From: Marmoricola sp.
GTDB lineage: Bacteria > Actinomycetota > Actinomycetes > Propionibacteriales > Nocardioidaceae
Direction of reading: 5' to 3'
Assembly: GCA_025964795.1 (NCBI GenBank)
Contig: JAOPYC010000164.1
Location: 1 to 63,319 of the forward strand
DNA: 63,319 bases
Shown here: piece after piece, positions 6,416 through 62,476 of the stretch
How the letters are laid out: each line of letters opens with the position of its first letter
How positions within the stretch are numbered: the first letter of the stretch is position 1
Translations under genes and position numbers: made by a program
Notes under the pieces: generated by a model
Databases searched by the model: none
The model's input: only the letters and a program-made list of their open reading frames with translations
What the model was told of the DNA's origin: nothing

Positions 6416-6616
6416 GAGTAACTCCCAACTGGCCGGCACAGTCGCCGGAAGTGTCTGGATATCGGCGTTGAGACTACTGCGCGTTTGCTTCGCGGGTCAG
6501 GCAACCTCAGTGTGAGAAATGCTACCCCTCGGTAACTTGGCACCGCCCCTCACCCCGGTCGTCGGGAACGTGGTGCCGTGCGCCGCCGTACGACGGGGTG
6601 GGCGGACAAAGCGGAT

Positions 6617-6703
6617 GGGGTTGTCAGTCGAATCCGGTACTTCTCACCCGAAGTTTCGGCCTAGAAGTGCAGGTATCCCCGGCCAACCGGGGAAACCTGC
6701 ACC
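6617..6703 (-). repeat. Family B palindromic element, solo copy B1 (87 bp)
   Basis: One of four 87-bp copies in the window (others 25437-25523, 60206-60292, 61381-61467). On the minus strand it reads GGTGCAGGTTT, then a GC hairpin (14-bp arms at 6669-6682 and 6687-6700, one mismatch), then a weaker ACTTCT/AGAAGT hairpin (6639-6668). The GC-hairpin end is 2 bp from the stop codon of the minus-strand gene at 6706, so it may act as its terminator. This copy is the most diverged (ACTTCT instead of ACTTATC). Confidence 0.8.
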
Positions 6704-6705
6704 CC

Positions 6706-9339
6706 TCAGCCCTTGACTACCGAGGTCACCGTGCCGGCGCCGCTGAACTGCACGTTGAGCGGGCCGTCGGTGGCGCAGTAGCTGAAGGTGCTGCCGAGCC
6801 GGCGGTCGGGCTGGCCGATGGACTTCAGGGTGGCCCAGGAGGTCATCCCGGCCCTGATCCGGGACTTGATGACGCTGGTGGACAGCTTCGAGGTGGGGTT
6901 GGTGCACGCGTTGGGCTTGACGCCGTAGGCCCGCTCCCACATCTGCAGGTAGGCCTCCGGGCCGCGGGACATGTCGGTGACGATGTCCTGGCCGGCCTGC
7001 ATCTTCAGGTCCTGGATCCAGTCCGGGTAGAGCCCGTAGTGCGAGACGCCGTCCTTGTTGATGTCGTAGACCCGCTGGCCGCTCACCTGCTGGCCGACCT
7101 TGACCCCGCCGAGGGTGGTGAACGGGTAGGTCACCGGGTGGTCGGTGGCCGCGTTGGGCCGCGGGTCGCCCTGGGCGCCGAGGCCGTTGATGTCGGCGCC
7201 GAAGCCGATGCCCCAGTAGGTGGCCGGGTTGGCCCAGGTCAGGTGGCGCTTCCACTTCTCGACGAAGCCGTTGCTGTCCCCGGCGTACGGCGTGATGAAG
7301 CCCTTCTCCTGGTAGATCCGCGGGTAGGCGTCGGGGGTGGACCACGAGTGGCTGGAGAGGACGCCGCCGTAGTGCAGCGAGTCGATCAGGTCGAGCGACG
7401 CCTTGCGGGCCTTGACGCTCATGTGGTCCGGGTCGAAGAGCATGTTGCGCTTGGCCAGCCCCTTGATCGTGTGCGCGCCGAGGTCGGTGAGCCCGAGGGA
7501 GTTGCAGTGGTGCGCCGCGGGGTAGATCGGCAGCGAGGGCAGGGTGACGCCGGAGGCCTCGGCCACGGCGCCGAAGATCGCGTCCTGCTGCGGGGGCTCG
7601 CCGGAGTCGATCGGGGCCGCCAGGGTCTGGTCGCGGTCGTGGATCTCCGGGTCGTTGGGGTTGCAGGTCTGCATCCGCCACGCCGACCCGGTCTCCAGCA
7701 GGTTGGCCCCGTTGACGAGTACGCCGGTGGACCCGGCGTCACCGGCCACCCCCGACAGGGCGTTGTCGAACTTGTTGACCAGCTCCATCTGCGAGACGCC
7801 CATCTTCCGCACCTCGTCGAGCTGCTGGTCGATGGTGGCCCTGGTGCACTTCAGGTCGGGGACGCCGAGCTTCTGCGTGCAGCCGAACGGCACCGAGGTC
7901 TCGATCCCCATCACGACCGCGAGCTTGCCGGCGTTGATCACCTGGCGGGCCTGGTCGGGGTCGGTGACGATGCGGTACCAGCCCTTCCCGGGGCCGCCGT
8001 TCTGCGCGTCGACGTAGGCCTCGAGGGCGCGCATGTCCTTGGCCTGGAGGCGGATGGAGTCCATGTCGTCGCACGAGTTGCGCTTGATCGGGTAGATCTC
8101 GCAGAGCTTGTTGTTCTCGACGAGCAGGTTGACCAGGATCCGCTGGCCCGCTCGCCAGGAGCGCTCCATCCACTTGTAGTAGGTGCCCTCGTGGGTCAGC
8201 GAGTCGGGCGCCGGCCAGTCCTTGAAGGTCGGCCAGCCCACCGGGTCATGGGTGGGCTTGTTCGACAGGAGGGCCTCGACGAGCGCGCCGTTGCCCCCGG
8301 TGAGCTCGTGGTCGGGGCAGTCGCGCAGCGCCACGGTCACGCCGTACGGCGACCAGGGGCGCCCGCAGTGGATGTCGCCGCCGAGGAACTCGAAGGCCAT
8401 CCCGTGGGTGTGGGCGTCGACGAAGCCGCGTACCTCCTGGGTCCTGGTGACGCCGGAGATCGGGTTGCCGGTGACGTTGGTGCTCACCTCGGGGAAGTCC
8501 TTGCACCCGGTGCGCAGCTGCAGCCGGAACCGGCTGCCCGTCGCCGTGATGGTGGGCGTGCCGGCGGCGTCGGTGAGGAACCCCTTCCCGGCGACCTCGA
8601 AGCGGAACAGCCCCGTGGTGGGCATGGTGGTCACCCAGTCGTTGGTGGGTCCGGGTTCGGCGGCGTAGCGCGCGGTCGGCTGGTTGGCGTCGAGGAAGGT
8701 ACCGGCGCGCGTGTAGAGCAGGTAGCTGCCCAGGGCGCTGGGCTTGAAGTAGAGGGGCTCGCCGGCCCCGATCGAGGTCGCGCTGAAGGTGGGGGTGGTC
8801 GCGCCGGTGAGCCAGCGCCCGGACGAGGCGGACTGCACGCCGTAGCAGGCGTTGAACATGTTGTAGCGGTCCGTGGGGGTGCTGGCGTGGGTCACGCTGG
8901 TCACCGGGACGCTGGACAGCTTCGGCTCGGTCTGGTCCCGTTGGGCGGCGGCGTTGCTGACCGCGGCTCGCGCCTGGGTCGCGGTGGTCGGGTCGGCGGT
9001 GCTCGCGTCGGTGACCGTGGCGGCCCGGGAGACGGCGTTCTTGGTCCGGGGGTCGTTGTGGTTGTGCGGGACGCTCTCGTCCGCGGCCGTGAGGTGGGTG
9101 TGGGTGCCGTCGGCGTTGTAGACGGTGCCGGACCCGTCGGTCGCTGCCTTCTTCGTGCCCGCCTTCGCGGCGTAGGCCTTCTTGTAGCCGTCGGCGTCGT
9201 CGCTGTCGTCGCCGGACACGGCCCCCGTCGGGATCAGCACCACCGCGACGGCGGCCGCGGCCGAGAGCGCGATGGCCGCGCCCAGGCGGCGACGGGCCGG
9301 CGAGGTCGACGTGCCGGATCGAGAGGTGAGGCGGCCCAT
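6706..9339 (-). CDS. Secreted M19 (membrane dipeptidase)-like metal-dependent hydrolase
   Basis: An 877-residue exported protein. ATG at 9339 is chosen because AAAGGA lies 8 nt upstream and an N-terminal signal/membrane segment (AAIALSAAAAVAVVLIPTG) follows a basic stretch. After a low-complexity region, residues about 190-310 resemble a fascin/ricin-type beta-trefoil (SGRWLTGATT, YLLYTRAGTFLDA). The C-terminal two thirds look like the amidohydrolase superfamily: GFVDAHTHG supplies an HxH pair, VVMGIETSVPFG a possible acidic ligand, and LFDPDHMSVKAR with GVLSSHSWS mirrors the D-x-SH and SHS motifs of renal dipeptidase-type M19 enzymes. The substrate is unknown; a peptide or amide in the wall or medium is plausible. 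The B1 element follows its stop directly. Confidence 0.8.
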   Translation of the reverse strand: MGRLTSRSGTSTSPARRRLGAAIALSAAAAVAVVLIPTGAVSGDDSDDADGYKKAYAAKAGTKKAATDGSGTVYNADGTHTHLTAADESVPHNHNDPRTKNAVSRAATVTDASTADPTTATQARAAVSNAAAQRDQTEPKLSSVPVTSVTHASTPTDRYNMFNACYGVQSASSGRWLTGATTPTFSATSIGAGEPLYFKPSALGSYLLYTRAGTFLDANQPTARYAAEPGPTNDWVTTMPTTGLFRFEVAGKGFLTDAAGTPTITATGSRFRLQLRTGCKDFPEVSTNVTGNPISGVTRTQEVRGFVDAHTHGMAFEFLGGDIHCGRPWSPYGVTVALRDCPDHELTGGNGALVEALLSNKPTHDPVGWPTFKDWPAPDSLTHEGTYYKWMERSWRAGQRILVNLLVENNKLCEIYPIKRNSCDDMDSIRLQAKDMRALEAYVDAQNGGPGKGWYRIVTDPDQARQVINAGKLAVVMGIETSVPFGCTQKLGVPDLKCTRATIDQQLDEVRKMGVSQMELVNKFDNALSGVAGDAGSTGVLVNGANLLETGSAWRMQTCNPNDPEIHDRDQTLAAPIDSGEPPQQDAIFGAVAEASGVTLPSLPIYPAAHHCNSLGLTDLGAHTIKGLAKRNMLFDPDHMSVKARKASLDLIDSLHYGGVLSSHSWSTPDAYPRIYQEKGFITPYAGDSNGFVEKWKRHLTWANPATYWGIGFGADINGLGAQGDPRPNAATDHPVTYPFTTLGGVKVGQQVSGQRVYDINKDGVSHYGLYPDWIQDLKMQAGQDIVTDMSRGPEAYLQMWERAYGVKPNACTNPTSKLSTSVIKSRIRAGMTSWATLKSIGQPDRRLGSTFSYCATDGPLNVQFSGAGTVTSVVKG

Positions 9340-25350: not shown

Positions 25351-26609
25351 GGTTGCGCCTCGAGCACGCCCTCCTGGAGACCGGCGTCGAGTCCGACGTA
25401 CGCCTCGAGGTGGAGGGCGGGGTGATCATTTCGGTCAGGGTTCTCAGCCCAAACTCTCACTTATCAGGCGAAGCTTCGACTGATAAGAGCAGTGATCCCC
25501 GGTTAACCGGGGAAACCGGCACGGTCCCCGGCCTCACCCTCCCCGGCTTCGCCAACTGCCACTCGCACGCGTTCCACCGGGCGCTGCGGGGGCGGACACA
25601 GGCCGAGCGGGGGTCGTTCTGGACGTGGCGGGAGCAGATGTACGCCGTCGCGGCGGAGCTGACCCCGGACACCTACTTCGCCCTGGCCCGCGACACCTAC
25701 GCCGAGATGCGGGCCACCGGGATCACGGCGGTGGGGGAGTTCCACTACCTGCACCACCAGCCCGACGGGACGCCGTACGACGACCCCAACGAGATGGGCA
25801 AGGCGCTGCTGGCCGCCGCCGACGAGGCCGGGATCCGGATCCGGCTGCTCGACACCTGCTACCTCGCGGCGGGGTTCGGCCAGCCGCCCGAGGGAGTGCA
25901 GGTCCGCTACTCCGACGGCGACGCGCACGCGTGGGCGGAGCGGGTGGCCGCCTTCGACGACCCGCGGGTGGGCGCCGCCATCCACTCGGTGCGGGCCGTC
26001 CCGCGCGAGCAGCTCCCGGTCGTGGTCGAGGCCGCCGCGGGCAAGCCGCTGCACGTCCACCTCTCGGAGCAGGCCGCCGAGAACGAGGCCTGCCTCGCCG
26101 CCACCGGGCTGACCCCGACGCAGCTCCTCGCCGAGGCCGGGGCGCTCGGGCCGCTGACCAGCGCCGTGCACGCGACCCACCTGACCGAGGACGACATCCG
26201 CCTGCTGGGGGAGTCGCGCACCAACGTCTGCTTCTGCCCGACCACCGAGCGCGACCTGGCCGACGGCATCGGCCCGGCCCGGCGGTTGCACGACGCGGGC
26301 GCCACCATCACGCTGGGCTCCGACAGCCATGCCGTGATCGACCTGATTGAGGAGATGCGCGCGGTGGAGATGCACGAGCGCCTGGCCTCCCAGCAGCGCG
26401 GGCACTGGTCCGCCCTGGAGCTGCTCGCCGCGGCGACGTACGACGGGCACCGCTCGCTCGGCTTCCCCGACGCCGGCCGGATCGTCCTGGGCCAGCGCGC
26501 CGACCTGGTCACCCTCGACCTGGACAGCATCCGCACCCGGGGCGGGGGCGCCACCGCCGAGACCGCCGTCTTCGCCGCAACGTCCGCCGACGTCAGGACC
26601 CTGAAGTGA
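25347..26609 (+). CDS. hutF: Formimidoylglutamate deiminase
   Basis: A 420-residue amidohydrolase-superfamily enzyme that releases ammonia from N-formimino-L-glutamate to give N-formylglutamate. Motifs: [16 protein letters not shown] (metal HxH and substrate loop), [41 protein letters not shown] and [19 protein letters not shown] at 25347 overlaps the preceding stop. Codons 31-59 are an exact 87-bp copy of repeat B (25437-25523), inserted between IISV and VPGLTLPGF. This segment uses two TTA codons plus GTT, CCA, TCA, ACT and GAA, unlike the rest of the gene. It falls before the barrel, in the small N-terminal domain, so the enzyme may remain active. The stop overlaps hutI (GTGA). Confidence 0.95.
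25437..25523 (-). repeat. Family B element, copy B2, in frame inside hutF (87 bp)
   Basis: Contains CTTATCAG/CTGATAAG arms (25460-25467, 25480-25487) around a CGAAGCTTCG core, then the perfect palindrome CCCCGGTTAACCGGGG (25497-25512). It begins exactly on a codon boundary (codon 31) and its 29 codons contain no stop. Orientation is opposite to B3. Length is identical to the other three copies. Confidence 0.92.
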
Positions 26610-59109: not shown

Positions 59110-60197
59110 CGACGTCTGACATCGAAGACACCCCTCCCACCGACACCCCGGGGCCGGTGCGGCACGCCTCGCGGACGCCGGATCGGGTCAGCGAGAACCT
59201 GCTCGTGGTCGAGGACCTGGTCAAGCATTTCCCGATCAAGGGCGGCCTCCTCCAGCGGACGACCGGCGCGGTGCAGGCCGTCGACGGGGTCAACTTCGAG
59301 GTACGCCGCGGCGAGACCTTCTCGATCGTGGGCGAGTCGGGCTGCGGCAAGAGCACCACGGCTCGCCTGATCACCCGGCTGCTCGAGCCCACCGGCGGCA
59401 AGGTCACCTTCGAGGGCCACGACATCACCCACCTGTCCGACGCGAAGATGCGCCCGATGCGGCGCGACATCCAGATGATCTTCCAGGACCCCTTCTCCTC
59501 GCTGAACCCGCGGCACACCGTGGGCAAGATCGTCGGTGCGCCGTACAAGCTGCAGGGCGTGACGCCCGAGGGCGGCCGCAAGAAGGCGGTGCAGGACCTG
59601 CTGGAGACGGTGGGCCTGAGCCCGGAGCACTACAACCGCTACCCGCACGAGTTCTCCGGCGGGCAGCGGCAGCGGATCGGGATCGCCCGCACGCTGGCGC
59701 TCAAGCCCAAGCTGATCGTGGCCGACGAGCCCGTCTCCGCGCTGGACGTGTCCATCCAGGCCCAGGTCGTCAACCTGCTCGAGGACCTCCAGGAGGAGCT
59801 CGACCTCACCTACGTGATGATCGCGCACGACCTGTCCGTCGTACGCCACGTGTCGGACCGGGTCGCGGTGATGTACCTCGGCAAGATCGTGGAGATCGGC
59901 GACCGCGACGACCTCTACGACCGTCCGCGGCACCCCTACACCGTGGCGATGCTCTCCGCCGTTCCCGTGGCGGACACCAAGCGCCGCCACCAGCGCGAGC
60001 GGATCCGCCTCGAGGGCGACGTCCCCAGCCCGATCAACCCCCCGCCGGCCTGCCGCTTCCACACCCGCTGCTGGAAGGCCCAGGACCTCTGCCGCACCGA
60101 GGAACCCCCCCTCCTCCAGATCGGCACCGCCCCCCACAGCGAGCACAAGGTCGCCTGCCACTTCCCCGTCGACCCACCCGCCTCCCCGGTGGGGTGA
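59106..60197 (+). CDS. Peptide-type ABC transporter ATP-binding protein (DppF-like)
   Basis: A 363-residue ATPase forming the heterodimer with DppD. Walker [15 protein letters not shown]-loop [17 protein letters not shown], signature [15 protein letters not shown], Walker [15 protein letters not shown] and H-loop [10 protein letters not shown] are present, plus the C-terminal [14 protein letters not shown] cysteine cluster. GTG at 59106 overlaps the DppD stop. It is the last operon gene; repeat element B3 begins 8 bp after its stop and its GC hairpin may be the terminator. Confidence 0.95.
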
Positions 60198-60205
60198 GGG
60201 TGGTT

Positions 60206-60292
60206 GGTGCAGGTTTCCCCGGTTAACCGGGGATCCCGTCACTTATCACTGGGTGCTTCGCCTGATAAGTGATGGGGTCGGCTCAAAGCCCC
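60206..60292 (+). repeat. Family B element, copy B3 (87 bp), left inverted repeat of the AbiEi/DUF559 unit
   Basis: Starts GGTGCAGGTTT, then the perfect palindrome CCCCGGTTAACCGGGG (60217-60232), then a second hairpin TCACTTATCA/TGATAAGTGA (60239-60248, 60263-60272). It is in inverse orientation to B4, and a hand count gives about 65 of 87 identical positions to the reverse complement of B4. It begins 8 bp after the dppF-like stop. Confidence 0.93.
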
Positions 60293-60310
60293 GCCCCATT
60301 TGTCGCCCGA

Positions 60311-61261
60311 TCAGTGCACGGGCCCGCCGGCGAGTACGGCGCGAATCCTGGCGACCGTGACCTCGGGGGTGTAGAGGTCCGCCCACGCGATGCGAATGCA
60401 GCGCCAACCGGTGATCCGGCAGATGAGCTCCTCGCGCTTCTTCTCCCGCAGGACGGCGTCCACGACAGACTCGCCCTCCTTGCGGTACTTCACGTACTTC
60501 TCCTTGCCGTCGAACTCCAGGAAGACGCCGTACTCCGGCCACGCGAAGTCGACTCGCGCGAGGATCTCGCCGCGATAGTCGAGGATCTTGTACTGCGGCT
60601 GCGGCTTGGGTAGGCCACCGCGCCAGAACATATAGCCAGATCGTGACTCGCCAACGGACTCGTGCCGGCCGTCGGTCAGGCGCAGCACCAGGTCGGTCGA
60701 CAGCGACCCAGGCGCATGAACCATTGCCTTGGCCTTCTTGCGCAGCGAGTCGATGTCAGTCTCACCGGTGTGCAACAGGTGGTCGATCGCAGGCAATGCG
60801 TGCTCGACGTCCGTGATGGTGGTCAGGTCCAAGGCAGTCCTGGTTGCGCAAGTGACGAGCTGGCTGTTCCGTTTCGCGACGTCCTCAGGAGGGAGCACAC
60901 CGCAGTGTTGGGCAACGCCTGCCTCTCGCCTGCCAATGCGCCGGTCAAGGCGTGTGAGGTGGACGTCGCCGAGGGGGAGGTCCCACAGGGGCGCGTCATA
61001 ACAGGCGAGCGCGGTCACGTGGGACAGTGCGACTTTCGTCTTGGTCGTGCGAAGGATCGCAGCTGCTCTGGTGAGATGGCGACCCTTCTCGCTGAGTTCT
61101 TCCCAATGGCGCCACATGACGTAGGCGCCATGTCTGACCCGGTGGATCAGCTTGGTCCGTACGGCATTCGCGATAGCCCGGTCGTCGAAGCCGACGGCGA
61201 GTGCCTCTCGGCGAAGAAAGATGCCGTTCTGATCGCACAGCGCACTGAAGGGGACGTTCAT
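60311..61261 (-). CDS. AbiEi-like HTH / DUF559 (PD-(D/E)XK-like) protein inside inverted repeats
   Basis: A 316-residue protein with a two-part plan. Residues 1-60 (IFLRREALAVGFDDRAIANA, LIHRVRHGAYVM) match the winged-helix start of AbiEi-type antitoxin/regulator proteins. The middle (KVALSHVTALACYDAPLWDL, RTALDLTT) is also typical. The C-terminal ~100 residues form a DUF559/Vsr-like nuclease fold: ARVDFAWPEYGVFLEFDGKE provides the D...ExDxK pattern and ITGWRCIRIAWADLY the closing strands. ATG at 61261. GC is visibly lower than in flanking genes, suggesting transfer. It is the counterpart of 16883-17866, each in its own repeat pair. Nuclease activity is predicted, not shown. Confidence 0.82.
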   Translation of the reverse strand: MNVPFSALCDQNGIFLRREALAVGFDDRAIANAVRTKLIHRVRHGAYVMWRHWEELSEKGRHLTRAAAILRTTKTKVALSHVTALACYDAPLWDLPLGDVHLTRLDRRIGRREAGVAQHCGVLPPEDVAKRNSQLVTCATRTALDLTTITDVEHALPAIDHLLHTGETDIDSLRKKAKAMVHAPGSLSTDLVLRLTDGRHESVGESRSGYMFWRGGLPKPQPQYKILDYRGEILARVDFAWPEYGVFLEFDGKEKYVKYRKEGESVVDAVLREKKREELICRITGWRCIRIAWADLYTPEVTVARIRAVLAGGPVH

Positions 61262-61380
61262 GCCGTGAGAGTCGCTTTCCGACGTACGGCGAGGAAGGCA
61301 GCGTCCTCTGGTTGTGGATGGAGGGGTGCGGAGTCAAGCCTGTGGACGGCAGCTGGTCGTAGTCCTGCCGACAAATGGTC

Positions 61381-61467
61381 AGGGTTCCAGGTCAATCCCG
61401 ACACTTATCAGCCAAAGCATCGGCCGATAAGTAACGGAGTCCCCGGTTAACCGGGGAAACCGGCACC
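61381..61467 (-). repeat. Family B element, copy B4 (87 bp), right inverted repeat of the AbiEi/DUF559 unit
   Basis: Contains CTTATC/GATAAG arms (61404-61409, 61426-61431) and the perfect palindrome CCCCGGTTAACCGGGG (61441-61456). Its GC-hairpin end is 1 bp from the stop codon of the LacI gene on the minus strand. It lies 120 bp upstream of the AbiEi/DUF559 start, so it may also affect that promoter. Confidence 0.93.
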
Positions 61468-61468
61468 C

Positions 61469-62476
61469 CTACGGAGCCCCCGCCGAAGACCCCCGCGCCA
61501 CCAGCCGGGTGGGGAGGACGAGGCCGGTGGGGGTGTGGCCGGCGAGGGCGTCGAGGAGGATCCGGGCGCCCCGGTGGCCGAGGTCGTGGGCGGGCTGGGC
61601 GACCGTGGTGAGGTCGAAGAACTCCGAGAGCTCGTGGTCGTCGATGCCGACCACGGAGATGTCCTCGGGGACGCGGAGGCCGGCCTTGCGCAGGGCGTGC
61701 ACGGCGCCGATGGCCATCTCGTCCGAGGCAGCGAAGATCGCGGTGGGGCGGGTCGGGGCGTCGAGCAGCTGCTGGCAGGCGGTCAGGCCGCCGCGGGCGG
61801 TGAAGTCGCCGTAGGCCTCCCAACCCGGCTCGATCGCCAGGCCCGCCTCGGCCATCGTCTGCCGGTAGCCCTCGAGCCGGTCGTGCGGCGTGGGCAGCTG
61901 CAGGCCGGCGTGCTCCGGGTCGGGCGTGCCGCCGATGTGGGCGATCCGCTCGTGGCCCAGCTCGATCAGGTGGCGTACGGCGGTCCGCGAGGCGAGCACG
62001 TCGTCGATCCGGACGCTCGGCCACTCCGGCACGTAGCCACCGACCACCACGGTCGGGGACCCGACCCGGACGAGCGAGGCCACCTCCTCGGGGGTGGGTC
62101 GCACCGCCAGCACCATCACGGCGTCCACCCGCTTGCTCAGCAGGTGCGTCGAGAACAGCCGGTGCCGCGCCTCGGGGTCGCCGGTGATGTCGTAGAGGAG
62201 CACGTCGTACCCCTCCTGCCGCAGCAGCTCCTCGGCCCCGTGGATGACGGACCCGAAGAACCACCGCGTCACGTTCGGTACGACGACCCCGACGGTCCGC
62301 GTCTGCCCGCTCTTCAGGCTCGCGGCGTGCGGCGAGGCGACGTACTCCATCCGCGCGGCGGCGGCCAGCACCCGTTCCCTGGTCTCGTCGGAGACGCGCG
62401 GCAGCCCGCGCAGCGCCCGGGACACGGTCGCGATCGAGACCCCGGCCTCACGGGCCACGTCCTTGATCCCGCTCAT
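61469..62476 (-). CDS. LacI family transcriptional regulator
   Basis: A 335-residue repressor. The N-terminal helix-turn-helix and hinge read IKDVAREAGVSIATVSRALR with YVASPHAASLKSGQT. The periplasmic-binding-protein-like sugar domain has VGVVVPNVTRWFFGSVIHG, FAASDEMAIGAVHALRKAG and VPEDISVVGIDDHELSEFF. Effector is probably a sugar. No sugar transporter or glycosidase is adjacent, so the target is outside the window or is a distant locus. ATG at 62476. Copy B4 ends 1 bp beyond its stop codon and may serve as terminator. Confidence 0.93.
   Translation of the reverse strand: MSGIKDVAREAGVSIATVSRALRGLPRVSDETRERVLAAAARMEYVASPHAASLKSGQTRTVGVVVPNVTRWFFGSVIHGAEELLRQEGYDVLLYDITGDPEARHRLFSTHLLSKRVDAVMVLAVRPTPEEVASLVRVGSPTVVVGGYVPEWPSVRIDDVLASRTAVRHLIELGHERIAHIGGTPDPEHAGLQLPTPHDRLEGYRQTMAEAGLAIEPGWEAYGDFTARGGLTACQQLLDAPTRPTAIFAASDEMAIGAVHALRKAGLRVPEDISVVGIDDHELSEFFDLTTVAQPAHDLGHRGARILLDALAGHTPTGLVLPTRLVARGSSAGAP

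Follow-up and report, generated by a model that had tools for sequence, protein, structure and literature searches.

Repetitive extragenic palindromic (REP) sequences are tied to one enzyme family, the HUH-type RAYTs (PMC8266576, PMC3733652), and in the arrangement called REPtron distinct, single-copy RAYT enzymes are each accompanied by dispersed palindromes of their own (PMC3116915, PMC8049555, PMC8266576). REPs with a CGTC tag have been reported without a dedicated transposase (PMC3733652). Apart from REPs, homing endonucleases with a restriction-like fold are described (PMC3943268), and the AbiEi protein of S. agalactiae binds inverted repeats (PMC3985639). Here, we analyze a 1262-bp element at positions 60206-61467 of a stretch of 63,319 nucleotides from Marmoricola sp., hereafter the window, in which a single nuclease-like gene lies between two inverted palindromic repeats, the arms. 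Single copies of the repeat (solos) are found elsewhere in the same genome.

With a probability of about 60%, in our estimate, the element belongs to a second, independently evolved REP-type system, in which a dedicated non-HUH nuclease, an AbiEi-like reader joined to a Vsr-like cutter, multiplies the palindrome-hairpin repeats belonging to it in the chromosomes of actinobacteria and keeps them uniform by cut-and-repair conversion, and in which reader and repeat co-diverge into many private versions. In terms of known systems, we on balance favor a two-part arrangement analogous to the REPtron, selfish or semi-domesticated, with a non-homologous enzyme. Its first part would be a single-copy gene in which an AbiEi-like DNA-binding region is fused to a Vsr/DUF559-type nuclease, its second part a set of palindrome-plus-hairpin repeats of ~80-95 nt, the version of which is specific to the nuclease. 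Two of these repeats, inverted to each other, would frame the gene, and solos would lie elsewhere, mostly just past stop codons. The observations behind this reading are the framing of the gene, a shared repeat architecture with covariation across 45 elements, the match between solos and resident nucleases, occupied and empty sites, different repeat versions at shared sites, and conserved single-copy nucleases.

The likeness to REPtrons as described (PMC8266576, PMC3733652, PMC8049555, PMC3116915) comprises an enzyme gene that is present once and has inverted palindromes on both sides, numerous solos throughout the genome, enzymes that differ from one another and are each paired with a particular repeat version, inheritance in the vertical line and occasional copies inside genes. 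In contrast to REPtrons, however, the enzyme appears AbiEi-like and Vsr/DUF559-like instead of HUH, no GTAG or CTAC is found at either foot of the palindrome (0 of 81 arms), and the core consists of a palindrome and a hairpin (~63 nt) instead of one short hairpin. Lacking both the defining enzyme and the tag, the window system is thus not a member of the REPtrons. Y1_Tnp (PF01797), which is the RAYT domain and the sole HUH family searched, is present in none of the 24 genomes of our genus set but in 5 of 14 control genomes. An earlier note on this DNA, made from the letters alone, had suggested that the protein may act on the repeats and maintain or move them, as RAYTs do with REPs. Hereby, the association of such nuclease genes with the repeat proved strongly positive, by framing, by the match of solos within their own genome and by co-occurrence in 149 genomes, whereas a relation to RAYTs themselves found no support. 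With Y1_Tnp, the HUH family searched, missing from the genus set, it is also very improbable that we are dealing with classical REPs moved by a RAYT or another HUH enzyme elsewhere in the genome, with the nuclease as a passenger: architecture, copy numbers and placement are indeed REP-like, but the arms frame the nuclease and the solos follow its version.

CGTC-tagged REPs and the palindromic elements of Rickettsia resemble the present repeats in being palindromic and in occurring also within coding genes, those of Rickettsia in frame. They differ in that the present repeats have a candidate enzyme of their own, the gene of which they physically enclose. Our searches of open-access papers found no description of such a nuclease-repeat system.

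Inverted repeats around the nuclease gene and its relatives

The two arms of the window element, 60206-60292 and the reverse complement of 61381-61467, agree at 65 of 87 positions, which is exactly the figure counted by hand in the earlier note, and at 58 of the first 71 (82%). Both carry CCCCGGTTAACCGGGG and a ACTTATCA...TGATAAGT-type hairpin, so that the shared palindrome and the TTATCA/TGATAA-type hairpin seen earlier are confirmed as well. From the outside inward, each arm consists of an outward-facing palindrome, the hairpin and a third, weaker self-complementary segment. Folded as single-stranded DNA, the arms reach z values of -4.7 and -5.2, which none of 200 dinucleotide shuffles equals. 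A 16-mer of the arm has four matches in the window at three mismatches or fewer (expected 0.59), a number given by none of 100 shuffles. Between the arms lies one gene with a guanine-cytosine (GC) content of 64.0%, compared to 70.7% for the whole window, as expected from the single lower-GC gene reported before.

Framing by inverted repeats is a property of the nuclease family. Within the genus set a protein match at E <= 1e-10 is found in 20 of the 24 genomes, and 35 matches are full-length (E <= 5.1e-48). One of these (L070) is cut by a contig end, and of the other 34, which have both flanks, 32 are framed by inverted arms when judged by the score and threshold of the public loci described below; L055, with a score of 38, is marginal and just above that threshold. 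In a separate BLAST test, which had no control, an inverted flank match at E <= 0.01 was obtained for 25 of 25 genus loci, that of L049 being only 17 nt long. The public loci derive from a protein scan, from which the best 80 of 548 relatives were taken; they include Nocardioides, Marmoricola, Pimelobacter, Phytoactinopolyspora, Rhodococcus, Nakamurella, Hoyosella and others. Five of the 80 were dropped for want of 250 nt of flank. Among the 75 scored loci, 62 exceed a threshold that only 1% of 1008 control intervals pass, these being of equal size and drawn from the loci themselves. The counts for the genus and the public loci are not summed because the sets overlap, at least in the elements L111 = L061, L132 = L047, L142 = L065, L144 = L052 and L150 = L053. 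To judge from L111 = L061, the genus set probably includes Marmoricola sp. URHB0036.

Some loci depart from the usual form. In L135, L162, L163 and L165 the right arm lies ~690-820 nt past the gene end, compared to the usual ~110 nt, and these units may contain something in addition to the nuclease gene. Remote homologues (~30% identical; L058 in G007, L059 in G003 and L060 in G018) are also located between inverted matches. These, however, consist of short words repeated in clusters, such as GACCGGTCA or CGCCGAGCGGGCACTGCTGC, and represent a different repeat style. In L057 (G014:C129) the nuclease gene is broken into two frames and the flanks still hold inverted matches; the genome retains 39 repeats detected by the covariance model.

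Repeat architecture and its match to the resident nuclease

For a comparison of the arms, 88 elements were kept at an arm score of at least 40, 51 of which gave 93 palindrome-type arms. Our alignment (A2) holds 81 of these arms from 45 elements in 79 columns without an internal gap, a gap-free state that is partly by choice, as 10 of the 12 omitted arms needed a one-base gap. The arms differ in sequence between elements and share a common plan, a palindrome of ~28 nt followed by a hairpin of ~34 nt. The structure comprises 12 palindrome pairs and 15 hairpin pairs; 83.5% of the cells are paired, compared to 35-48% when the structure is slid along the alignment. Double-change cells number 545, whereas shuffles give 206, and all 27 pairs covary, both partners having changed. 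Since the arms were chosen for having a palindrome, the first helix is favored by this selection, whereas the hairpin was no entry condition. The share of G-U among paired cells is 0.4% for the seven inner pairs of the palindrome, 2.8% when the whole palindrome is counted and 7.1% for the hairpin. The central four bases of the palindrome, which would be the loop in an RNA, are themselves palindromic in 53 of 81 arms, and the two central pairs are of Watson-Crick type in 86% and 68% of cases (expected 32% and 36%). The scarcity of G-U and the palindromic centers point to a constraint at the level of DNA, and we read the palindrome as a putative two-fold symmetric DNA site. Arm and protein similarity are correlated over the 45 elements (Mantel r = 0.47; 0 of 2000 permutations). 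The center of the hairpin (A2 columns 47-50) reads TGCA in 35 of 81 arms, the commonest word across otherwise unlike versions. Many solos of G001 and G009 (L256, L257, L258, L219, L230 and others) appear by eye as palindrome-hairpin-palindrome, symmetric about the hairpin, which is perhaps a REPIN-like form.

The genome of the window has 14 exact occurrences of the 16-nt core, BLAST places the repeat at 21 positions at E <= 0.03 (the four window copies included), and the covariance model yields at least 75 matches, overlapping strands included. Model counts in general are lower bounds, with 150 candidates per genome scored in one scan and 32 in another, and overlapping matches on both strands are counted twice. 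The exact 20-mer GTTTCCCCGGTTAACCGGGG was not found in the other 23 genomes of the genus.

The assignment of repeat versions was evaluated with 90 solos from seven genomes. In a first comparison, which used part of the elements, 59 of the 90 fit best an arm from their own genome, and it was then predicted that the misfits would match elements not yet included. In the full comparison (the 34 elements and L070, 300 nt of flank each) the best match of 80 of the 90 is an element from the genome in which they lie, whereas 2000 label shuffles give 14.6 on average and never more than 28. Hereby, 17 solos fitted later-added elements (L294 gained 12, L297 three, L295 and L296 one each); L070 gained a further four and L045, left out of the first comparison, one, and one match (L285) was lost. 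Among the ten remaining misfits, four fit better with a sister genome (among G002, G008 and G010), two are ties and four are weak. The window's genome itself encodes two full-length nucleases, 38% identical, and holds two matching sets of solos, with 8 and 7 of 18 solos. A solo on contig C58 of G000 (L039, ~450-550) combines, by eye, an L069-type hairpin with an L041-type outer palindrome, which is suggestive of recombination between the two repeat versions of this genome.

Nuclease genes and repeats are also associated across genomes. When distant homologues are counted as well (E <= 1e-20), 141 of 149 genomes of the family have one. At least three repeats are present in 54 of the 60 genomes with the closest nucleases and, with decreasing closeness, in 20 of 38, 5 of 9 and 4 of 12, as compared to 3 of 30 genomes with a remote nuclease or none (Spearman 0.62, a figure inflated by kinship since the model and the profile both come from one clade). 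In the genus set the same association, with 16 genomes scored as having the nuclease and 8 as lacking it, gives a one-sided p of 0.007, G014 with its broken gene and 39 repeats being scored among the latter.

Occupied and empty sites, gene ends and inheritance

At a junction of two convergent genes, which we take to be lpd and sucB, three of the 22 genus genomes that were read have the entire unit (G001, G002 and G010; gap of 1.26-1.29 kb, by eye). A solo lies beside lpd in G008 and G018 and between the genes in G000, and G014 has a 242-bp gap without the repeat. The gaps next to lpd in G011, G012, G019 and G022 (L201, L203, L210 and L212) hold, by eye, other kinds of inverted repeats, so that palindromes in general may tend to settle at this junction. 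A comparison of G002, G010 and G008 covered eight solo sites, and at seven of them the repeat is missing from at least one of the three genomes. Moreover, three sites (L278, L250 and L249/L276/L241) each carry different repeat versions in different genomes. To judge from these sequences, such differences suggest that the resident version overwrites older copies; alternatively, they may result from independent re-insertion at favored sites. Within an amidohydrolase gene, presumably HutF-like, which lies at 25.4 kb in the window, an in-frame repeat occurs in 5 of the 18 genomes in which the motif was found, each time with its own sequence, and by eye it was not seen in the other 13.

Presence and absence of the unit at the lpd/sucB junction would also be expected of an ordinary insertion sequence, i.e. 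a 1.2-kb transposon with terminal inverted repeats of ~90 bp, the solos of which would be single ends or leftovers in the manner of miniature inverted-repeat transposable elements. The inverted arms at both ends and the length of the armed elements (1102-1500 nt, median 1227) agree with this explanation, as do two inverted solos within ~280 bp on contig C54 of G000 (6418-6695), a possible miniature unit. Nonetheless, we regard an insertion sequence as quite unlikely. A near-identical second copy is missing, as full-length nucleases within one genome are at most 59.9% identical (30 pairs). The window protein matches no transposase family in Pfam or NCBIfam, and no transposase fold is among its top fold matches in the PDB. 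Homologues are found in only 2 of 72,556 plasmid records, with identities of 31.5% and 26.5%, and in 0 of 50,697 phages.

The solos are located close to gene ends. In 56 of 80 solos the palindrome end lies between -12 and +25 nt from the stop codon of an open reading frame of at least 100 codons (the hairpin end in 30 of 80). The share is 9.6% among 9600 positions chosen at random and 8.3% among 4320 taken from the same loci. This placement may reflect a target preference, purging from genes or a use as 3'-end element. In 42 of 80 loci an open frame runs across the solo, a number that we discarded as a measure because spurious long frames are common in GC-rich DNA. If the palindromes were host-useful 3'-end elements, such as terminators or structures protecting mRNA or DNA, with the AbiEi-like protein as their regulator and spreading as a by-product, this position would follow naturally; the nucleases moreover look conserved, the ratio of nonsynonymous to synonymous substitutions (dN/dS) ranging over 0.10-0.38 in the ten most similar pairs from different genomes (dS is saturated in one). 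We nevertheless consider host use unlikely. The in-frame copies in the amidohydrolase gene and the absence of the repeat from orthologous sites of related genomes speak against it, as does the apparent DNA-level constraint with almost no G-U in the palindrome. It leaves unexplained why the repeat version tracks the resident nuclease, and the stop-adjacent position may reflect purging elsewhere. Crude scans of the element revealed neither terminators nor promoters, and in particular no T-tailed terminator. Rfam gave two chance matches, far below the cut-offs.

The window element itself slots between the stop codons of two convergent genes. On the left, an ATPase gene of an oligopeptide ABC transporter has its stop (60195-60197) 8 nt ahead of the element; on the right, the stop of a LacI-type gene (61469-61471) follows at a distance of 1 nt. 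In a search for an empty counterpart of this 1262-bp site, a LacI homologue (E <= 1e-60) was found in 4 of the 23 other genus genomes and, within 1.5 kb either side, the transporter gene in none. Table 1 summarizes the features of the window.

Table 1. Positions of the element, its parts and two solo repeats in the window.
Feature	Position	Strand	Remarks
Left arm	60206..60300	+	palindrome core 60217-60232, faces outward; hairpin; third short self-complementary segment
Left arm, match to model R1	60209-60285		61.8 bits; the arm itself is among the model-building sequences
Right arm, inverted copy of the left	61378..61467	-	palindrome core 61441-61456, outward to the stop of the LacI gene
Right arm, match to model R1	61389-61464		66.5 bits; the arm is also part of the model
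Nuclease-like gene, 316 aa	60311..61261	-	AbiEi-like N-terminal region; presumed Vsr/DUF559-like nuclease in the C-half
AbiEi-like region, ~residues 1-180	60722..61261	-	AbiEi_4 at 10-48, PADLOC AbiEi models at 10-179
Presumed Vsr/DUF559-like nuclease region, ~residues 200-316	60314..60664	-	placed by invariant acidic residues
Solo repeat inside N-terminal region of amidohydrolase gene, in frame	25444..25520	-	frame open throughout
Solo repeat	6624..6700	-	70.5 bits; weaker overlapping opposite-strand match 6669-6763

The protein, a possible mechanism and significance

The sole Pfam match of the window protein is AbiEi_4 (E 1.2e-5), and the best of the PADLOC AbiEi models reaches 1.4e-16. The DUF559/Vsr profile of Pfam matches neither the window protein nor nine homologues at E <= 1; L058, one of the nine, shows a weak match to REase_MTES_1575, below its cut-off. 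NCBIfam gave no match to the window protein, and a sequence search of the PDB gave seven chance matches, the best with E 0.54. The AlphaFold model has a mean pLDDT (predicted local distance difference test) of 92.7. When it was compared to the PDB with Foldseek, the AbiEi antitoxin 6y8q was the sole match at E <= 0.001 (1.1e-4), followed by the Vsr endonuclease structures 1vsr and 1cw0 (E 0.013 and 0.027, probability 1.00, target template modeling score 0.51-0.52). In a viral fold library, proteins of the DUF559, homing endonuclease, restriction enzyme and Vsr types were matched. As the output of the fold searches carries no query ranges, the AbiEi fold is assigned to the N-half by the profile matches and the Vsr fold to the C-half by the invariant residues. 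Of the latter, E205, D238, E249, D251, G252 and K255 are invariant across 23 genus proteins. In a set of 81 sequences, two of which (L149 and L156) are probably frame-shifted, E205 is kept in 80 and D238 in all 81; the segment E249-K255 belonged to the search pattern of this set, so that its conservation there carries no weight. Profiles, predicted fold and conserved residues thus suggest that an AbiEi-like half is joined to a nuclease of the Vsr/DUF559 kind, in which E205 and D238 are presumed to be catalytic. The initial designation as an AbiEi/DUF559 nuclease-like gene holds for AbiEi by profile and fold; the DUF559 part finds no support in Pfam and is borne by the predicted fold.

Since the PADLOC models cover residues 10-179 and an AbiEi antitoxin is the top fold match, one could regard the gene as part of a type IV toxin-antitoxin or abortive-infection system that came to lie between repeats by chance. 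This we judge to be the least probable of the explanations. The neighbors in the window, the only region scanned, are the ABC transporter ATPase and the LacI regulator, with no AbiEii toxin, and framing by repeats is a feature of the family. With the AbiEi antitoxins of the type IV system AbiE the protein shares an AbiEi region with an N-terminal winged helix-turn-helix. It differs from them by the missing AbiEii partner, by the additional nuclease-like region and by being embedded in a repeat system.

In the copying system that we favor, the AbiEi-like half would bind the outer palindrome as double-stranded DNA, and the nuclease half would nick or cut the DNA at the repeat or its hairpin or next to them. 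If the break were then repaired with another copy as template, the repeat would be placed at new sites and older copies would be rewritten to the resident version, in the fashion of homing endonucleases. A new copy could arise by ectopic repair off another copy, possibly via the extruded hairpin, and the whole element would seldom move while its repeats do. Binding, cutting and mobilization of the repeats by the protein are what we infer from the genomic data. Palindrome binding and cutting are made plausible by the binding of inverted repeats by AbiEi and by the existence of homing endonucleases with a restriction fold. With the Vsr/DUF559 and EDxHD homing endonucleases of the I-Bth0305I type, the protein would have in common the nuclease fold, an attached DNA-binding module and the proposed cut-and-repair copying. 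In contrast to those enzymes, no intron, intein or phage setting was seen here, full inverted repeats frame the gene, and the proposed target is the element's own repeat.

Several findings weigh against this reading. Two of the 34 genus loci (L049 and L300) and 13 of the 75 public loci, among them Blastococcus, Nocardia and two Rhodococcus, stay below the arm threshold. Eight of these 13 are without strong arms even within 1500 bp, and the other five have strong arms further out, in the 1500-bp flank, a size for which there is no control. Only 51 of the 88 armed elements are of the palindrome type; of the 37 elements without a palindrome-type arm, five are known duplicates and were skipped, and 32 show a different hairpin arrangement. 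The G001 solos L263 and L266 failed to fit the element predicted for them. Full-length nucleases occur together with few or no R1 repeats in G006 (7), G011 (11), G019 (1), G020 (0) and G023 (0), and at least three repeats are found in 7 of 42 genomes without a close nuclease, where they are perhaps remnants. At the compared sites no target-site duplication is definable, the genomes being too divergent. Finally, we know of no nuclease of Vsr-like fold that inserts DNA by itself, which makes the insertion step a gap in the mechanism.

If the proposed copying system is real, bacterial chromosomes would have invented the REP-type lifestyle more than once, and repair-driven copying would suggest itself as a mechanism for repeats that lack a transposase. 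The family would moreover provide dozens of natural pairs of reader and site for studies on the co-evolution of proteins and their DNA sites. It would also suggest a function for a gene that is very common in these bacteria.

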